64,000 bases of DNA from Tsuneonella troitsensis. GTDB lineage: Bacteria; Pseudomonadota; Alphaproteobacteria; Sphingomonadales; Sphingomonadaceae. Numbering within the stretch: the stretch's first letter is position 1; every line of letters begins with the position of its first letter. A program made the position numbers and the translations under genes. Below the pieces are notes generated by a model. It saw only the letters and a program-made list of their open reading frames with translations. It did no database searches and was not told the origin of the DNA. Where the stretch lies: the NCBI RefSeq assembly GCF_001441535.1, contig NZ_LMAU01000003.1, positions 186,001 to 250,000 of the forward strand, in the 5' to 3' direction. Shown piece after piece: positions 4,684 to 47,669 of the stretch.

Positions 4684-5334
4684 GTGATACTCCAGATCGT
4701 CATTCTCGCCATGATCGCGGCGTTCCTGGGGCTGCGCCTCTACTCGGTGCTCGGCCGCCGTGCGGAGCACGAGGAGCAGCCCGAGCCGACCCGGTTCGAG
4801 TCTCCCGAACTGCCGCCCGCAGGCGCGGGACAGCTTCGTCCGGCCCAGCCGGCTCGCCCTGCGGCGCTCGAAGGCGCGCTCCCGGCTGTGGAGCGCGGCG
4901 TGCGCGACATCGCCGCGGCCGACAAGCGGTTCGACGTGTCGGGCTTCGTCGAGGGCGCCAAGGGCGCATACGGCATGATCCTGGAAGCGTTCTGGGCGGG
5001 CGACCGCGAGACGCTGCGCGAACTGTGCGACGACGACGTCTATGCCGGTTTCGAGGGTGCTATTTCCGCGCGCGAGGCTGCGGGCGAGACACTCGACAAT
5101 CGCCTCGTGCGGATCGAGGATGCGACGATCGACATGGCCGAACTGGTCGGCCCGATCGCCCGCGTTCGCATGCGGTTCATCGCCGACATCGCCGCCGTCA
5201 CGCGCGACAAGGACGGCACCGTAGTCGCCGGCTCGCTCGACGATGCGATCGAGGCGCGCGATCTTTGGACCTTCAAGCGCGACGTGCGCGAGGCCGATCC
5301 GCACTGGCTGCTCGACGAGACCGACGAAGCCTAA
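4684..5334 (+). CDS. Tim44/TimA-like protein
   Basis: A 216-residue protein starting at GTG 4684. An N-terminal membrane helix (MILQIVILAMIAAFLGLRLY) is followed by a Pro/Glu-rich linker, then a Tim44-like domain from about residue 85 (FVEGAKGAYGMILEAFWAGDRETLREL...). Bacterial homologues are membrane-anchored proteins with the fold of mitochondrial Tim44; their role is thought to concern membrane proteins or respiratory complexes but is not settled. It heads a same-strand run with mltA and smr, divergent from secB, which is the common alphaproteobacterial order. Confidence 0.88.
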   Translation: MILQIVILAMIAAFLGLRLYSVLGRRAEHEEQPEPTRFESPELPPAGAGQLRPAQPARPAALEGALPAVERGVRDIAAADKRFDVSGFVEGAKGAYGMILEAFWAGDRETLRELCDDDVYAGFEGAISAREAAGETLDNRLVRIEDATIDMAELVGPIARVRMRFIADIAAVTRDKDGTVVAGSLDDAIEARDLWTFKRDVREADPHWLLDETDEA

Positions 5335-8090: not shown

Positions 8091-10337
<2,247 letters not shown>

Positions 10338-39629: not shown

Positions 39630-40241
39630 TTAGCGGGTCGGCTCGCTCACGCCGTGGCCCGACGCAACCGAATCGAGTTCCTCAAGGATCGCGCGGTGCG
39701 CTCCGACATCGTCGATCGATCGCCGGGGCATGTCGCCTTCGTCGAGCATGGTGGTGAGCGCCGCGCGGGCACGCCCCACACGGCTCTTGATCGTGCCAAC
39801 GGCGCAGCCGCAAATCTCTGCCGCTTCCTCGTACGAAAAGCCGCCCGCTCCGACCAGAAGCAGGGCCTCGCGTCGCTCCGGGGGAAGGGTAAGCAAGGCC
39901 CGGCGCATGTCGGCCAAATGGATCGGCTCCTCCTGACCCGCCGGTGCGGTAAGGATACGCTCGGCTACCGACTCGTCGTAGTCGCCGCGAAACCGGTTGC
40001 GTCGCATATCGGTGAGATACGCGTTGCGCAGGATGACGAAGGTCCATGCTCTCATGCTGGTGCCGGGTTCGAACCGGTCCTGCGCCGCCCAGGCCTTGAG
40101 AAGCGTTTCCTGGACGAGATCGTCAGCCATGTCCGGACGCCCGCACAGACCGCGCGCAAATGCGCGCAGGTGCGGGACCACTCCGGTCAATTCGCGTTTG
40201 AAGTCGGCTTTGTCGGACGCCGTGCGCTGATGCGAATCCAT
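39630..40241 (-). CDS. ecfG: general stress response sigma factor EcfG
   Basis: 203-residue ECF sigma factor. Region 2 reads LRAFARGLCGRPDMADDLVQETLLKAW, region 4 LPPERREALLLVGAGGFSYEEAAEICGCAVGTIKSRVGRAR. It has the EcfG/ECF15 features and context: NepR is encoded just upstream with a one-base TGATG overlap. When NepR is held by phosphorylated PhyR, the sigma directs RNA polymerase to GGAAC-N16-CGTT promoters, several of which are in this window, including its own. Confidence 0.96.
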   Translation of the reverse strand: MDSHQRTASDKADFKRELTGVVPHLRAFARGLCGRPDMADDLVQETLLKAWAAQDRFEPGTSMRAWTFVILRNAYLTDMRRNRFRGDYDESVAERILTAPAGQEEPIHLADMRRALLTLPPERREALLLVGAGGFSYEEAAEICGCAVGTIKSRVGRARAALTTMLDEGDMPRRSIDDVGAHRAILEELDSVASGHGVSEPTR

Positions 40242-40429: not shown

Positions 40430-40521
40430 TTTAGCTATCGCCCCTGACAATCTGATAATCCCTGCTTTCCTCGGGATTGCATGTGCGCAATCGCCCGGGA
40501 AAGACAAGCCCGTAGAAATGG

Positions 40522-40548
40522 GGAACGTAACCCTCGCGACTTTGTTCC
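40522..40548. promoter_or_regulatory. two overlapping, opposed EcfG promoters
   Basis: Minus strand, toward nepR-ecfG: GGAAC (40548-40544), 16-bp spacer, CGTT (40527-40524), a perfect match. Plus strand, toward the histidine kinase: GGAAC (40522-40526), 16-bp spacer, TGTT (40543-40546), one mismatch. Each -10 lies on the other's -35, so polymerase cannot occupy both at once. This implies autoregulation of nepR-ecfG and GSR control of the kinase gene. Confidence 0.8.
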
Positions 40549-40609
40549 CCTGACACCCTTGGTGTCCGCGGGGCAAAGGTTCAGGACGAATCCGATCGGG
40601 GCGATCGAG

Positions 40610-42292
40610 TTGCATGATACGGTAAAGGACGGCCGCAAGACCCGCCGCTGGCTGGTGGCATATCCGCGTGCCACGCCGCTTGCCATTTTCACGCTCATCG
40701 CCGCCATTACTTCGCTCAGCGTGTTCGCCATCGAGCGCGGCGAAAGGCGGCGTGAAGATGCGCGGCTGACGGCCACCTCGATGTCGATCGCCTCGGCGAT
40801 TGAGCGGCGTGCTAACACGTCGTCGGCCTACCTTCGCGCCGGCGCAGCTTTGTTCGGTACCGTCGACGGTGTGCCTTCCAGCCTGTTCCGCCGCTTCGTA
40901 AGCGAACTCAGGCTCGATTCCGACTATCGAGGAGTCGAGGGCGTGGGATGGGCCGAGGTGATCCGGCCCGAACAGGTCGCTGCATACGAGGCGCGCATCG
41001 GGATGGAGGTGCCGGGCGATCCGCGGGTGCGGCCCAGGCCCGGGCCCGAGCGCGACAGGCTGGTGGTGGTGACTTATCTTCAGCCCGATACCCAGCGCGC
41101 CCGGCGAGCGCTCGCGTTCGACATGTATTCCGATCCCGTTCGCCGCGCTGCGATGGACGAGGCGGAACGGACGGTGCGTCCCACGGCCAGCGGTAGAATC
41201 GTTTTGGCGCAGGAAGGCACCGGGCGACCTCCCGGGTTCCTGATATTCATGCCGGTGTTCGACCAGGTCGGCGGCATGCGCCAGTTGAAGGGCTTCATCT
41301 ACAGCCCGTTCAACGGCCGCGATTTCCTGCGTTCGGCAATCCAAACGGAAAGCCGCAACAGGATCGAGGTGCGGCTGTTCGATGGTGCGACCCCAAGCTC
41401 GGACGCGTTGCTCGCCGAGCTGGGGGATGATCGTTCGGTCGGACAAGTCCGCCGCGAGCGGATCGAAGTGGCGAATCGCACCATGCTGCTCGAGGTCGAA
41501 TCCTCGGGCGGCAATTCGCTGTCGATGTTGTCGATGCTGACCCTGCTGTTCGGGCTGATGGTTGCGACCCTGCTGATGATCGTCGCCCGCTTGCTCACCC
41601 AGCAGGCGGTCGAGGATCAGGCATCGCTCGATTGGCTGGCAGAACAGAATGCCATTCGCGACACCCTCACTCGCGAGCTAAATCACCGCGTCAAGAACAC
41701 CCTCGCCAACGTGCTTTCGATCGTCAGCCTGACGCGTCGGCGTGCCACCAATCTCGACGAGTTTGCCGAAGGACTGGACGGTCGCATTCGCGCGCTGTCG
41801 GCCACGCACGACCTCCTCACCCAGTCGGAGTGGGGCACAACTCCCATACGTGATGTGATCGAGGCGGAACTGGCGCCTTACGCGCAGGCCCGAGGCGTGC
41901 TCGAGCTTGCCGGACCGACCGTGGAACTGGCGCCCAACGATGCGCTGTCATTGGGACTTGCGATACATGAGCTGGCGACGAACGCGACCAAGTATGGGGC
42001 GCTATCCGTCCCCGGCGGCAAGGTGCGGATCACATGGGCGCTCGATCGTGACGACCTGGTCAGCCTTCGCTGGGTGGAGCGGGGTGGACCGCTCGTCTCG
42101 CAGCCTCGTTCACGCGGGTTCGGAACCGACCTGATCGAAAAGATAGTGGCGCACGAACTCCGCCACCCGGTCGAACTGCAGTTCGAGGAGCAGGGTGTGA
42201 CGTGCACACTGTTCGTACCAGTGCGACAGCCGAGCGAATTCGAGATCCGGGCGCGGCGCCGAGCCTTGGCGGCCAATCGCTCGGAAGGCTGA
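40610..42292 (+). CDS. CHASE-domain HWE-family histidine kinase, likely GSR input kinase
   Basis: About 560 residues. A membrane helix (LAIFTLIAAITSLSVFAI) is followed by a periplasmic CHASE sensor (RGVEGVGWAEVI, GRPPGFLIFMPVFD), a second helix (LSMLTLLFGLMVATLLMIV), then the kinase: phosphoacceptor His359 in ELNHRVKNTLANV, N box with IHELATNATKYGALS and the WxE motif in LRWVERGG, which define the HWE/HisKA_2 group. Such kinases phosphorylate PhyR-type regulators, and the position beside nepR-ecfG and phyR fits. No in-frame ATG follows the predicted promoter, so TTG 40610 (GGGG upstream) is taken as start; this is moderately uncertain. Confidence 0.88.
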   Translation: MHDTVKDGRKTRRWLVAYPRATPLAIFTLIAAITSLSVFAIERGERRREDARLTATSMSIASAIERRANTSSAYLRAGAALFGTVDGVPSSLFRRFVSELRLDSDYRGVEGVGWAEVIRPEQVAAYEARIGMEVPGDPRVRPRPGPERDRLVVVTYLQPDTQRARRALAFDMYSDPVRRAAMDEAERTVRPTASGRIVLAQEGTGRPPGFLIFMPVFDQVGGMRQLKGFIYSPFNGRDFLRSAIQTESRNRIEVRLFDGATPSSDALLAELGDDRSVGQVRRERIEVANRTMLLEVESSGGNSLSMLSMLTLLFGLMVATLLMIVARLLTQQAVEDQASLDWLAEQNAIRDTLTRELNHRVKNTLANVLSIVSLTRRRATNLDEFAEGLDGRIRALSATHDLLTQSEWGTTPIRDVIEAELAPYAQARGVLELAGPTVELAPNDALSLGLAIHELATNATKYGALSVPGGKVRITWALDRDDLVSLRWVERGGPLVSQPRSRGFGTDLIEKIVAHELRHPVELQFEEQGVTCTLFVPVRQPSEFEIRARRRALAANRSEG

Positions 42293-42395: not shown

Positions 42396-43190
42396 TCACC
42401 CGATCGGGCGGCTGGATCCAAAGAAAAGAGCCTGACTAATCGCCGCCCGGACCGTCGATTCCTGAAACGGCTTCGTGACCAGATACGTCGGCTCCGGTCG
42501 ATCGCCGGTGAGGAGGCGCTCGGGGTAGGCCGTGATGAAGATCACCGGCACACTGCCGATCGCCAGGATATCGTCGACCGCGTCGAGTCCCGAGGACCCA
42601 TCGGCAAGCTGGATATCAGCCAGAACCAGACCAGGGGTACGCTCGGCCACCACTTCCTGCGCCTGCGTGCGCGTTGCGGCGGTGCCGCAGATTTCATGTC
42701 CAAGCGAACGGACAAGATCCTCGAGCTGCATAGAGATGAGCGGTTCGTCTTCGATGATGAGCACGCTGGTCGCGGATTCGCGGTCGATTTCCTCGACTGC
42801 CTCCTGGACCATCGTCTCCACGTCGGCCGTGTCCATGTCCATGATCTCGGCCGCTTCGGGGATCGAAAAATCCTCGAGCGTGGTCAGCAATAGAGCCTGG
42901 CGGTTGAGCGGAGTGATCGTCCGAAGGCGGTCCTGCGCCATCGTTTCGTGATCCGAACCCGCGTCTTCCGAACTGGCCACTTCCAGATAAGCGCTTGCCC
43001 AGACCTTGTTGAAAGCCTTGTAGAGCGGCACGCGACCTTGCGAGAGCGACTGCTTCAAAGCGTCGTCAGCCAAAGCGGCTTCGAGTGTGGCGCGCACGAA
43101 TGCGTCGCCCGTTTGCTGGGAGCCGGTAAGCGCACGTGCGTACCGACGTAAATAAGGTAGATTTGCGGCGACTTGATCCCCGAGCGACAT
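42396..43190 (-). CDS. phyR: PhyR anti-anti-sigma response regulator
   Basis: 264 residues: a sigma-like N-terminal half (LPYLRRYARALTGSQQTGDAFVRATLEA ... LTTLEDFSIPEAAEIMDMDTADVETMV) and a receiver domain (VLIIEDEPLISMQLEDLV) with phosphoacceptor Asp192 in VLADIQLADG and Lys in VTKPF. When phosphorylated, the sigma-like part binds NepR and frees EcfG. ATG 43190 has AAGGGA 4 bases before it and a perfect EcfG promoter upstream, so the gene is in the regulon it controls. Upstream extensions of the frame are rejected. Confidence 0.97.
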   Translation of the reverse strand: MSLGDQVAANLPYLRRYARALTGSQQTGDAFVRATLEAALADDALKQSLSQGRVPLYKAFNKVWASAYLEVASSEDAGSDHETMAQDRLRTITPLNRQALLLTTLEDFSIPEAAEIMDMDTADVETMVQEAVEEIDRESATSVLIIEDEPLISMQLEDLVRSLGHEICGTAATRTQAQEVVAERTPGLVLADIQLADGSSGLDAVDDILAIGSVPVIFITAYPERLLTGDRPEPTYLVTKPFQESTVRAAISQALFFGSSRPIG

Positions 43191-43222: not shown

Positions 43223-43247
43223 AACGTGGCTGCGGCGACATGGTTCC
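43223..43247 (-). promoter_or_regulatory. EcfG promoter of phyR
   Basis: GGAAC (43247-43243), 16-bp spacer and CGTT (43226-43223) on the minus strand match the GSR consensus exactly. The -10 is 33 bp from the phyR start. Confidence 0.9.
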
Positions 43248-43319: not shown

Positions 43320-44072
43320 GTGGCGAGCGTGAGCGTTTGGCTGGTGCCCGACTGTTTCCAATGCCCCTTGCGGCCATTGCCCGGTCTCTGCCCTCCCAGT
43401 GACGAGCAGACGGTTACGATCCAAGACCGCAAGCGCGGCGAGCTGCCGGTTCCGCGTGGCGGAGTCCTGATCGCGCAAGGGGAAAACCGCGACGCGATAT
43501 ACACGGTGCTTCAGGGCGTACTGATTCGCTACCGAACGCTGGACGACGGGCGGCGCCAGATCACCAATTTCCTCTTCCCGGGCAATCTGGTGGGATTACA
43601 AGCCGCTTTCGACGAACCTTTCGGGCACTCGGTCGAGGCCCTGATCCCGTCGCGCGTCTGCGTGTTTCATCGCAAGGACTTCACGCCATTGATCGCTGCG
43701 CATCCCCGGCTGGGCTTCGATCTGGTGTGGATGGCCGCCAAGGAAGAGGCGGAACTTGAGCAGCACCTAGTCTCGCTGGGGCAGCGGAACGCGCGCGAGC
43801 GGGTGACCGCGCTTGCCGTGTGGTTGCTAGAGCGTGCCCAGGCGACCGGACTGGCGAGCGATGACAACCGGTTCGAATTTCCGATGACCCAGGTTCAGAT
43901 CGCCGACATGATGGGACTGTCGCACGTCCACGCCAACCGGACGCTTCAGAGCTTGCGCCGGGACGGAATCATCGATTGGCGGCCCGGCGGGTTGCATATT
44001 CCGGACCTGGATCGAGCCAGCGAGTTCGCGCGCCTTGGCCCTCACCTTCCGAAAAAAAGCCCATACATTTGA
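43320..44072 (+). CDS. Crp/Fnr-family regulator with N-terminal cysteines
   Basis: 250 residues from GTG 43320 (GGGGAG-rich ribosome site). A cyclic-nucleotide-type sensor barrel (GVLIAQGENRDAIYTVLQGVLIRYRTL), a dimerisation helix and a C-terminal winged HTH (FPMTQVQIADMMGLSHVHANRTLQSLRRDGII) are present. Cys12, Cys15 and Cys24 (DCFQCPLRPLPGLC) plus a cysteine in SRVCVFH give the C-x2-C-x8-C...C arrangement of oxygen-sensing [4Fe-4S] Fnr proteins, although spacing is not identical to E. coli Fnr. It is divergent from phyR with a 129-bp gap. It may link oxygen or redox state to this locus, but no target is shown. Confidence 0.88.
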   Translation: MASVSVWLVPDCFQCPLRPLPGLCPPSDEQTVTIQDRKRGELPVPRGGVLIAQGENRDAIYTVLQGVLIRYRTLDDGRRQITNFLFPGNLVGLQAAFDEPFGHSVEALIPSRVCVFHRKDFTPLIAAHPRLGFDLVWMAAKEEAELEQHLVSLGQRNARERVTALAVWLLERAQATGLASDDNRFEFPMTQVQIADMMGLSHVHANRTLQSLRRDGIIDWRPGGLHIPDLDRASEFARLGPHLPKKSPYI

Positions 44073-44120
44073 TCATCTTGGGGCGTAACGTAGGCCACAA
44101 AAAAAATTTTCGGACCCGCG

Positions 44121-44145
44121 GGAACGCGTTTTCGGGTTGGGCATT
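44121..44145 (+). promoter_or_regulatory. EcfG-type promoter in front of the small RNA
   Basis: GGAAC (44121-44125), 16-bp spacer, CATT (44142-44145): one mismatch to GGAAC-N16-CGTT. No protein gene follows on this strand for 2 kb, but a hairpin RNA with terminator does. Confidence 0.65.
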
Positions 44146-44151
44146 TTATCA

Positions 44152-44244
44152 TTGTCACCGCCGAGACCCCCCCTCCCGTCCAAGCGGCTGGTGATACGAT
44201 CCCGAAGGGCCTCCGCTCTCTAGAAGAGCGGAGGCCTTTTTTTT
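44152..44244 (+). ncRNA. gsrN: candidate GSR small RNA, GsrN-like
   Basis: About 93 nt, start inferred a few bases after the -10 and end at the T-run. A 5' hairpin pairs TCACC GCCG (44155-44163) with CGGC T GGTGA (44185-44194), nine pairs with one bulged T, and presents a 21-nt loop (44164-44184) containing seven C, T, three C. A short linker leads to a 12-bp terminator stem with eight T. In Caulobacter the GSR RNA GsrN is EcfG-dependent and uses an exposed C-rich loop in its 5' hairpin to pair with mRNA ribosome sites; the design here is the same, and it lies beside phyR-nepR-ecfG. Homology is inferred from architecture, not from alignment. Confidence 0.65.
44208..44244 (+). terminator. strong intrinsic terminator (small RNA / Fnr-type gene)
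   Basis: Perfect 12-bp arms GGCCTCCGCTCT (44208-44219) and AGAGCGGAGGCC (44225-44236) with a 5-nt loop, followed by TTTTTTTT (44237-44244). On the other strand no T-run follows, so it acts only on plus-strand transcripts. Confidence 0.97.
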
Positions 44245-44296: not shown

Positions 44297-44746
44297 CTAC
44301 GTGGCTGGCTCGCCCTTGGTCAGGGCGTCCTTCAACCGAGCCAGCAGGCCTTCGCGCGGAGGATTGCACAGCGCATCGATCAATTCGGCGTGATCGTACG
44401 GTTTCTCGAGAACGGGACCCAACTCGGCGATTTCGACGGGAATGTCCTGCGGGGACCCGGTGGAAAACACGATCCGCGGAGGGTTCGGGCCGACGGAGTT
44501 GACCAGTTCGGCGATCGCCCATCCGTCGTCCCGATCGGCCAGGTGAACGTCGAGAACAAGTCCGTCCGGTCGCTTGTCGCGCAGCGCGGAAAGCGCGTCG
44601 GCCGTAGTGGTGCAGATCGTCACCGACTTGGCGCCCGCGTCGATCAGCGATCCTTCCAGAGCGACAGCGATCAGCGCATCGTCTTCCACCAGCAAGACGT
44701 GGCCCAGCTTGCGGGCGGGTTTGTTCTTGCCTGGTCGCTTGGCCAC
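44297..44746 (-). CDS. single-domain response regulator
   Basis: 149 residues from GTG 44746 with AAGAAGG 9 bases ahead. A lone receiver: VLLVEDDALIAVALEGSLI, phosphoacceptor Asp in LVLDVHLADRDDG, FSTGS in place of the usual T/S switch block, and LEKPYD with the conserved Lys. The PxxFSTGSP segment resembles the FATGUY receivers (for example SdrG of Sphingomonas) that take part in GSR phosphorelays; this, and its position, suggest a GSR role, by inference only. There is no output domain. Confidence 0.88.
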   Translation of the reverse strand: MAKRPGKNKPARKLGHVLLVEDDALIAVALEGSLIDAGAKSVTICTTTADALSALRDKRPDGLVLDVHLADRDDGWAIAELVNSVGPNPPRIVFSTGSPQDIPVEIAELGPVLEKPYDHAELIDALCNPPREGLLARLKDALTKGEPAT

Positions 44747-46147: not shown

Positions 46148-47293
46148 ATGACCGTTGAAACCCCGATACAGGCGACCGCGCAAGCCCCGCGCCCCTATTC
46201 GGGCGCCCGGAACGAGGACGACAAGGCGCTTCTGCGCGCCGCCGTCGAACTCACCCGCGACATCGGGGAAGCGAAGGCTGCCATCTATTGGCCCGACATG
46301 CTCGGCTCGGCGATCGTCGGCTATGCCGCGCTCGCCGGTGCCATCCTGTCGCCTGCGCTGTGGGTCACGATATTGCTCGGCATGGTCGCGACGCTGGCGC
46401 TGTACCGCGCGCTGCTGTTCATCCACGAACTGACGCACCTCCATCGCGACGCTTTGCCCGGCTTTCGCACTGCGTGGAACCTGATCGTCGGCATCCCGAT
46501 GCTGATGCCCTCGTTCATGTACGAGGACGGGCATACGATCCACCACTCGCGCAAGCGCTATGGGACCCCCGACGATCCCGAATACCTGCCGCTCGCGCTG
46601 ATGAAGCCGTGGAGCCTCCCGGTCTTCATCCTGGTATCGCTGCTCGCCCCGATTGGCTTGGTCATCCGCTACGGCGTCCTGGCGCCGCTGGGCCTGTTGA
46701 TACCGCCGCTTCGCCGGCTCAACTGGGAGCGGTTCTCGACACTGGCTATCAACCCGGATTTCCGCCGGCGGCCCGCCGCGCCCGAAGACCGCCGCCGTTT
46801 CGTCCTCTTGGAAACAGGCGCCGCGATCTGGGGAATGGTGGTGATCGCCAGCGTATTCTGGATCGGCTGGCAGCCGCTGATCGTCGCTCTCGCAGTGTTC
46901 TCTGCAGTCGCGGTGCTGAACCAGTTGCGAACGCTCGTGGCACACCTTTGGGAAAACGACGGCGAACCGATGAGCGTAACCGCGCAGTACCTCGACACGG
47001 TCAATGTGCCACCACCCGGGTTCGTGGCCGCGCTGTGGGCTCCGGTCGGACTGCGGTATCACGCGCTGCACCACTTGCTGCCCTCGTTGCCCTATCATTC
47101 GCTCGGCGAAGCGCACCGCCGGCTTACCGCGCACGAAGTCGGTCAGGCGACCTACAGCTGCGCGCATTACCGCGGCATGGCGCCGCTGGTAGGCAAGATC
47201 GCCTCGAGCACGATGCGGCGTCCGGCACCGGTCGCGCACGAAAAAGGGGCCGCCTCCATGGAAGCGGCCCCCGGAAACGCCGGGCGCGGGTAA
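46148..47293 (+). CDS. membrane fatty acid desaturase-type protein
   Basis: 381 residues with di-iron histidine boxes HELTHLHRD, HTIHHSRKR and HHLLPSLPYH, and membrane helices between (AILSPALWVTILLGMVATLALYRALLF; LPVFILVSLLAPIGLVI; GMVVIASVFWIGWQPLIVALAVF). It belongs to the fatty-acid desaturase / hydroxylase superfamily; the substrate (acyl chain or carotenoid) is unknown. Its last 50 bases also hold a terminator for the opposite-strand gene. Confidence 0.9.
   Translation: MTVETPIQATAQAPRPYSGARNEDDKALLRAAVELTRDIGEAKAAIYWPDMLGSAIVGYAALAGAILSPALWVTILLGMVATLALYRALLFIHELTHLHRDALPGFRTAWNLIVGIPMLMPSFMYEDGHTIHHSRKRYGTPDDPEYLPLALMKPWSLPVFILVSLLAPIGLVIRYGVLAPLGLLIPPLRRLNWERFSTLAINPDFRRRPAAPEDRRRFVLLETGAAIWGMVVIASVFWIGWQPLIVALAVFSAVAVLNQLRTLVAHLWENDGEPMSVTAQYLDTVNVPPPGFVAALWAPVGLRYHALHHLLPSLPYHSLGEAHRRLTAHEVGQATYSCAHYRGMAPLVGKIASSTMRRPAPVAHEKGAASMEAAPGNAGRG
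47241..47272 (-). terminator. terminator of the small lipoprotein gene, inside the desaturase CDS
   Basis: Minus-strand stem GGGGCCGC plus CTTCC/GGAGG around CATG (47246-47272) followed by five T (47245-47241). It lies 52 bp past the lipoprotein stop but inside the last 18 codons of the desaturase on the other strand. Confidence 0.75.
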
Positions 47294-47323: not shown

Positions 47324-47611
47324 TCAGTCTTCGACCGTCAGCGTTCCGGCGTTTGTATCGGCCCTTACGCGCGTATCGGCGTCGCCAACGTCGGCGGTTA
47401 CACCATCCGGCCCGATCTCGACTCGATCGGCGGTGTCGGTGGCGGTGCCGTCGACGGGCGTGACCACGGTCGTTTCGGTTGCGGCGGGGGCGGGCGCCAT
47501 CATAGCGGCATCACCTTCGGCAGTGGCCATCGCATCGGTGTTGTCCGGCGTGCTGTCGGCACATGCGGCCAAGGCAAGAGCGGCGAGGGCGGGAACGACA
47601 AACTTCTTCAT
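47324..47611 (-). CDS. small lipoprotein under EcfG control
   Basis: 95 residues. MKKFVVPALAALALAAC is a lipoprotein signal with cysteine 17. The mature part is acidic, Asp/Thr/Ala-rich (TDAMATAEGDAAMMAPAPAATETTV, DADTRVRADTNAG), likely disordered. A perfect EcfG promoter is 33 bp upstream and a terminator downstream, so it is a single-gene unit. Small lipoproteins of this kind are common GSR outputs. No family is recognised. It lies between converging desaturase and the lptG end. Confidence 0.85.
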   Translation of the reverse strand: MKKFVVPALAALALAACADSTPDNTDAMATAEGDAAMMAPAPAATETTVVTPVDGTATDTADRVEIGPDGVTADVGDADTRVRADTNAGTLTVED

Positions 47612-47644
47612 GATGCGATTTCCTTGAAAAGCATTGCCCGTTCA

Positions 47645-47669
47645 AACGGGTAAGCTTCGCCAAGGTTCC
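47645..47669 (-). promoter_or_regulatory. EcfG promoter of the small lipoprotein gene
   Basis: GGAAC (47669-47665), 16-bp spacer and CGTT (47648-47645): exact consensus. Between the lptG stop and the lipoprotein start. Confidence 0.9.

Follow-up and report, generated by a model that had tools for sequence, protein, structure and literature searches.

The region beside phyR in Tsuneonella troitsensis raises the question of whether the general stress response (GSR) of this bacterium includes a small RNA (sRNA), and whether such an RNA is the counterpart of GsrN of Caulobacter crescentus, as had been proposed in a sequence-only reading of the region. The window analyzed in this study, i.e., the whole stretch of 64,000 nucleotides, comprises positions 186001–250000 of contig 3 of the 2.9-Mb host genome. 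Sequence comparison with related genomes confirmed that the feature at positions 44121–44244 of the window is genuine; it is a conserved, predicted sRNA gene, which possesses an EcfG-type promoter motif and a C-rich loop. By direct reading, this segment contains, in order, GGAAC, 16 nt, CATT, 7 nt, a hairpin, an 11-nt linker and a terminator.

Parts of the RNA Gene

The following features were identified on the plus strand:

44099–44110, plus strand: A-tract/T-tract (A8T4) upstream of the −35 box, from conservation
44121–44145, plus strand: EcfG-type promoter GGAAC-N16-CATT, from reading and conservation
44152–44244, plus strand: predicted sRNA of about 93 nt, a 115-bit match to the covariance model
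44153–44196, plus strand: 5′ hairpin of 11 bp with one bulged U (44153–44163 paired with 44185–44196), from folding and pair counts
44164–44184, plus strand: 21-nt C-rich loop AGACCCCCCCUCCCGUCCAAG, from reading and conservation
44173–44181, plus strand: loop core CTCCCGTCC, from conservation
44197–44207, plus strand: conserved single-stranded linker CGATCCCGAAG, from alignments
44208–44244, plus strand: intrinsic terminator with a perfect 12-bp stem (44208–44219 paired with 44225–44236) and T8 (44237–44244), from reading, folding and compensatory changes

Direct reading bore out the previously proposed EcfG-like promoter, with GGAAC at 44121–44125 and CATT at 44142–44145, as well as the perfect 12-bp terminator stem followed by eight T. 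The 21-nt loop with C7-T-C3 (44167–44177) also stood, and the 5′ stem, which had been given as 9 bp, was revised to 11 bp with one bulged U. The predicted folding energy of 44150–44244 was −45.4 kcal/mol (z −6.2), and none of 200 shuffled sequences was equally low. The 5′ end of the sRNA is probably at about 44151–44153, as 141 of 146 loci have the start of the conserved RNA 7 nt past the −10 box. The linker CGATCCCGAAG is possibly a processing site or a second contact site.

Conservation of the Promoter

The motif GGAAC-N16-CRTT occurred five times in the window, compared with a mean of 0.83 when the window was shuffled 200 times with its dinucleotides preserved. Its combination with a terminator within 130 nt was found once in the window and in none of the 200 dinucleotide shuffles. 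The conservation in relatives described below is, in our view, far stronger evidence than these shuffle statistics.

An exact pattern that covered the loop and the linker and left the promoter untouched identified at least 118 loci, one of which was at a locus edge, leaving 117 readable. Among the matches listed, GGAAC was present no more than 100 nt upstream in all 117 readable loci, and CATT or CGTT followed exactly 16 nt past the last GGAAC in 104 of them. The other 13 listed loci had CGTA (7), AATT (2), CTTT (1), a spacing of 17 nt (2) or the last GGAAC elsewhere (1). Given that the search pattern covered the loop and linker rather than the promoter, conservation of the promoter is an independent result.

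For footprinting, 171 loci were tried, of which 162 fitted the footprint pattern and 146 were kept as distinct; the nine failing loci were L057–L060, L064, L119, L130, L138, and L172. As GGAAC and the start of the hairpin were required by this pattern, its GGAAC figure is conditioned. In the 146 distinct loci, identities of the boxes, the RNA stem, the loop and the linker were mostly above 0.75, while the per-base identity of the spacer between the boxes was 0.27–0.80 and below 0.45 at 12 of the 16 positions. The distance between the boxes was 16 nt in 143 of the 146 loci, and that from the −10 box to the conserved RNA start was 7 nt in 141. At positions −19 to −11 before GGAAC, the commonest base, A or T, was present in 86–123 of 143 loci. 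The A8T4 tract looks like an UP element.

Conservation of Structure and Loop

In an alignment of 39 sequences (A4), the stated structure kept 94.3% of the base-pair cells, while versions of the structure that were slid along the same sequences were 36–53% paired. Two-sided changes were found at 15 of 27 pairs, compared with 9.0 ± 1.4 after shuffling, and none of 500 column shuffles was as high. One of the five pair measures, the number of further pair types, gave no excess in this alignment (37 vs. 35.3 shuffled, with 149 of 500 shuffles as high). As the terminator accounted for most of the two-sided changes (13 of its 16 pairs, vs. 2 of 11 pairs in the 5′ stem), covariation gives modest support to the 5′ hairpin by itself; the hairpin also rests on its near-invariance. 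The second pair of the 5′ stem varied among G-U (18), A-U (12), and G-C (7).

The C run of the loop ranged from 5 to 9 bases in 144 of the 146 loci and was absent in the other two. In L053 and L054, which represent one lineage, the C run was gone and CUCCCGUCC was retained; thus, the steadiest part in the loci compared appears to be the core CUCCCGUCC and not the C7 run. In L058–L060 the loop was retained and the linker was degenerate, and neither the loop nor the linker is absolutely fixed. Free drift of the stem and loop among relatives had been set beforehand as the observation that would count against the RNA; it was looked for and not found.

The Stress Locus and Its Neighbors

The sRNA gene is located among genes of the GSR:

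39630–40241, minus strand: ecfG sigma factor (Pfam sigma-70 regions 2 and 4)
40481–42292, plus strand: HWE-family sensor kinase with CHASE domain, PhyK-like (Pfam CHASE, HWE_HK)
40524–40548, minus strand: EcfG-type motif GGAAC-N16-CGTT upstream of nepR-ecfG, from motif search
42396–43190, minus strand: phyR, general stress response regulator, divergent neighbor (Pfam PhyR domains)
43223–43247, minus strand: EcfG-type motif GGAAC-N16-CGTT of phyR, from motif search
43320–44072, plus strand: Crp/Fnr-type regulator between phyR and the sRNA, from domain search
44297–44746, minus strand: single-domain response regulator, convergent neighbor, from domain search

Synteny was compared in 32 loci of 10 kb with strong covariance matches (L053–L072 and L081–L092), which came from 32 of the 91 genomes with such matches. 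All 32 contained phyR, transcribed away from the RNA, and 28 also had ecfG inside the fetched stretch. In 28 loci phyR directly adjoined the RNA; in only four did a Crp/Fnr gene intervene, as it does in the window. Given that phyR was present in 32 of 32 loci and the Crp/Fnr gene in 4 of 32, the RNA is tied to the GSR locus and not to the Crp/Fnr gene.

Another GGAAC-N16-CGTT box of the window precedes a lipoprotein-like gene on the minus strand (47324–47669, 95 aa, no Pfam match), which possibly belongs to the EcfG regulon. A similar small lipoprotein-like frame was found near ecfG in L247, a locus from another genus of the family.

Distribution Among Genomes

By BLASTn, the stretch was present in 21 of 60 relatives, counting its own genome and including all ten other genomes of the same genus; in Tsuneonella litorea (L187), the same gene was found at the same place. 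A covariance model built from 21 sequences was then searched against 296 genomes of the order. Ninety-one genomes scored at least 61 bits and the next score was 36 bits; with such a jump, the split between strong and weak matches is clean. The 91 strong matches all came from the same family, represented by 213 genomes, and the 83 genomes from other families of the order gave none.

The named hosts among the matches listed were mostly Erythrobacteraceae and Novosphingobium, with one Blastomonas and some metagenome bins; the Erythrobacteraceae among the matches listed included Qipengyuania, Erythrobacter, Porphyrobacter, Croceibacterium, Croceicoccus, Tsuneonella, and others. The RNA gene was carried by 22 of the 23 genomes drawn from genus code g49, among which E. 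litoralis was not identified. This genus code, which includes Erythrobacter cryptus DSM 12079 as well as Porphyrobacter and Altererythrobacter records, most likely corresponds to Erythrobacter in a broad sense.

At an E-value of 0.01, covariance matches extended to 115 of the 296 genomes, and five of the eight weak ones fetched had no GSR gene nearby. These five (L073, L075, L076, L079, and L080) were judged to be chance matches, as was L078, which lies beside ecfG but resembles a plain terminator. The remaining two, L074 (36 bits) and L077 (33 bits), are located by phyR, and each has GGAAC-N16-CGTT, a like stem and a different C-rich loop. They come from a genus code that includes Novosphingobium and, at about 4990–5096, represent a loop-swapped form of the RNA with stem and linker alike.

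Further searches were directed at GSR loci outside the strong matches. In 27 genomes of the order picked for having no strong match, PhyR was found in 12, and no like gene was found within 1500 nt upstream of phyR at their 15 phyR loci. A second model, R2, which combined the promoter and the RNA, was searched against 385 genomes of the class, with no Caulobacter identifiable among them, and matched four genomes of the same family and, at 28 bits, one outside it. As R2 scored nine candidates per genome, with low sensitivity, this class search is weak evidence and distant relatives may be missed.

In L247, a candidate of different sequence and the same design was observed on the minus strand (about 1310–1457), directly downstream of phyR on its strand. 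It consists of GGAAC-N16-CGTT, two hairpins and a terminator, and the loop of its second hairpin, CCCCCCCCACCAUU, is of the C8-A-CC type. This is a single locus.

Comparison With Known RNAs

In the available portions of its description, GsrN of C. crescentus (ccna_R0081) is a sigma-T-dependent RNA of about 100 nt, whose C-rich 5′ loop pairs with G-rich mRNA stretches, with katG as a proven target (PMC5869019). The same portions report that full-length GsrN depends on Hfq, that GsrN is cut at about nucleotide 53 (C53) to give a 5′ isoform of 51–54 nt, and that most homologs in Caulobacteraceae are linked to GSR genes (PMC5869019). Similar to GsrN as described there, the RNA of the window has a promoter of the EcfG/sigma-T type, a comparable length, an exposed C-rich loop in its 5′ hairpin, linkage to the GSR and an hfq gene in its genome. 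Different from GsrN, however, its loop has the core CUCCCGUCC with C6–7, pairing with katG was unsupported, and it occurs in a different order. Its linker, at nucleotides 46–56 of the RNA, lies near the distance at which GsrN is cleaved according to that partial description, which is suggestive.

The RNA thus carries three GsrN-type marks, i.e., an EcfG-type promoter motif, proximity to phyR/ecfG and an exposed C-rich 5′ loop, and this assignment is by marks and, for the promoter, by motif only. Likened to GsrN by the marks described, it is best filed as GsrN-type by presumed function rather than as a GsrN ortholog. The earlier proposal that it is the counterpart of GsrN was supported in part, namely as regards the conserved sRNA gene, the EcfG-type promoter, the linkage to phyR in 32 of 32 loci and the C-rich loop; katG as a target was unsupported, and outside the family the class search, of low sensitivity, gave the one 28-bit match.

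GsrN-like RNAs of Rhizobiaceae were predicted, as the available portions state, from position at the GSR locus, the EcfG box, the C-rich 5′ loop and transcriptome data (PMC5869019). The RNA of the window shares these described marks with them, whereas their 5′ fold is described differently there and the window RNA is known from sequence alone.

C-rich loops also occur in other RNAs. CcsR of Rhodobacter is an anti-Shine-Dalgarno hairpin RNA with CCUCCUCCC loops. In the portions available, SmelA075 and SmelA099 are described as having three and four hairpins, respectively, each with a CCUCCUCCC loop of the anti-Shine-Dalgarno type (PMC3927594). Similar to these three RNAs, so far as described, the RNA of the window has a hairpin with a C-rich loop whose sequence is complementary to G-rich ribosome-binding sites. 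It was rejected as a member of the CcsR/SmelA075 type, however, as it possesses one non-terminator hairpin with the loop CCCCCCCUCCCGUCC and not several with CCUCCUCCC.

No Rfam family matched the RNA of the window at its gathering score. The highest weak match, RF01521 (CC1840), was similar in layout and was rejected at 22.6 bits vs. a gathering score of 50 bits. Among the matches listed from the open-licence literature, no account of an RNA of this kind in Sphingomonadales was found. The available portions of PMC5830050 and PMC8103513 contained no mention of such an RNA, and none of six sRNA terms occurred in the main text of PMC6599016, on the stress regulon of Sphingomonas melonis.

Search for Targets

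A katG gene is present in the window (PF00141 matches at 8190–10046, minus strand). Pairing of the loop with katG was assessed at MDAKTG-like starts in 12 of 13 genomes, with L262 left out. In all 12 genomes, duplex energies were no better than those of shuffled loops at the 5% level, with 38 to 200 of 200 shuffled loops being as good; the best duplex was that of L268 (38 of 200). The longest perfect complements between loop and katG ranged from 5 to 8 nt and had 6 nt in the katG of the window.

The perfect complements of 8 nt, TTGGACGG, in L266 and L267, and of 7 nt, TTGGACG, in L257 lie 73–81 nt upstream of katG. These three upstream matches count against the negative outcome for katG; they are, however, located in what may be the katG promoter and were absent from the katG of the window. 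The three loci share a TTAATCGATTGGAC stretch upstream of katG, which covers the 7–8 nt complement of CCGUCCAA of the loop. Its role may be that of a promoter or of a site for a regulator; in some species, it may be a site within the leader.

Searches beyond katG were compared with reversed patterns, a control that preserves base make-up only, so that avoidance of sites is not claimed. In the GSR-locus genes of 33 loci, there were 44 complementary 8-mers vs. 102 in the reversed control; near the starts there were 5 vs. 4, with no recurrent place. The genome of T. troitsensis contained 26 complements of the loop with at most two mismatches, vs. 42 in the control. In seven genomes, 28 exact 10-mers complementary to the loop core (35 with the gene itself) were found, vs. 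57 in the reversed control, and none of the 24 of these 28 sites that were compared was at an orthologous place. Targets are probably recognized through short seeds.

Proposed Function and Alternative Explanations

Our preferred reading, to which we assign a probability of about 0.7, is a stand-alone gene for a trans-acting sRNA of the general stress response that is GsrN-like in its working. Under stress, activated PhyR releases EcfG from NepR. EcfG would then transcribe the RNA from its own promoter under stress, likewise phyR and nepR-ecfG, which have the same motif. The 5′ hairpin of the transcript would present the loop C6–7-UCCC-GUCC, followed by the conserved linker and by the terminator, whose U tail would serve Hfq. 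Short G-rich segments of mRNAs, most probably at ribosome-binding sites, would pair with the loop, and such pairing would alter the translation or stability of the paired mRNAs. The gene, its promoter motif and predicted fold, the conservation of these and the linkage to phyR are what the sequences show; the dependence on EcfG, the binding of Hfq, the pairing of the loop and the mRNA targets are what we infer.

Hfq is encoded in the same genome (L317:1276–1962; contig 2, about 157128–157553), as one frame of 228 codons with two Hfq domains in tandem. Two Hfq matches were found in most genomes of the same family (202 of 213) and in 1 of 83 from other families of the order, the tandem order having been checked in the genome of T. 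troitsensis. Given that family genomes have two matches with or without the RNA, the tandem Hfq is uninformative as a cause of the distribution of the RNA.

Two explanations of the conserved segment are hard to sustain. The segment might be no more than the 3′ UTR or terminator of the Crp/Fnr gene upstream, whose end at 44072 lies on the same strand, 49 nt short of the −35 box; of 32 other loci, however, 28 keep the RNA and its promoter with no such gene found. Nor does a leader of a downstream gene fit well, since about 1.9 kb without a plus-strand gene of note follow; the next starts at 46148, which nearly matches the gene-free 2 kb claimed earlier, although the Crp/Fnr gene lies close upstream on the plus strand. 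Either form of this explanation is very improbable. A short conserved protein is least probable of all: although a 72-codon frame starting with TTG crosses the region, bulges appear and disappear and the C run varies from 5 to 9 bases, which would shift any reading frame, and protein coding is thus excluded.

The remaining alternatives concern ancestry and mode of action. The RNA could be a true ortholog of gsrN, descended from one ancestral alphaproteobacterial gene and diverged past sequence recognition. The promoter type, the place by phyR, the C-rich 5′ hairpin and the terminator layout agree with GsrN as far as the available portions describe it, and the linker at nucleotides 46–56 falls where GsrN is cut, at about C53 (PMC5869019). 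Against this stand the single 28-bit match outside the family among 385 genomes, which is weak evidence with nine candidates scored per genome by R2, the lack of a like gene in the 1500 nt upstream of phyR at 15 loci from 12 genomes that have no strong match, and the unlike C-rich-loop candidate that L247 has downstream of phyR, which suggests repeated origin. Orthology is therefore unlikely, while still the most serious of the alternatives. The RNA could also act mainly by titration, sequestering a protein or G-rich RNAs as a C-rich decoy instead of regulating particular mRNAs. A loop nearly frozen in sequence across 146 loci is compatible with such a decoy, as are strict complementary sites that are few and whose place is not conserved. 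However, the C-rich loop of GsrN was proven to pair with mRNA, according to the portions available (PMC5869019), and titration as the main role appears improbable.

Implications for the General Stress Response

The family described here, the form in L074 and L077, and the candidate in L247 tentatively suggest, at somewhat less than even odds, that alphaproteobacterial GSR loci have gained an EcfG-driven RNA with a C-rich hairpin loop by phyR again and again, or retain one whatever the cost in sequence. If so, the GSR would consist of a protein arm and an RNA arm, and the pairing surface of the RNA would be under convergent selection.

GsrN is the sole sRNA of the alphaproteobacterial GSR with a worked-out mechanism that we found. 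In the available portions of the study on GsrN, the legend of Figure 9 marks Erythrobacter litoralis as without an apparent gsrN-like gene (PMC5869019); our results place a conserved candidate in the Erythrobacter lineage, which was marked there as lacking one. The loop that is frozen here and the different C-rich loops in neighbors provide a natural contrast for finding what such loops recognize. With coordinates and a covariance model at hand, post-transcriptional control as a general part of the PhyR/EcfG response becomes testable, and in these bacteria the RNA probably adjusts protein production during stress.
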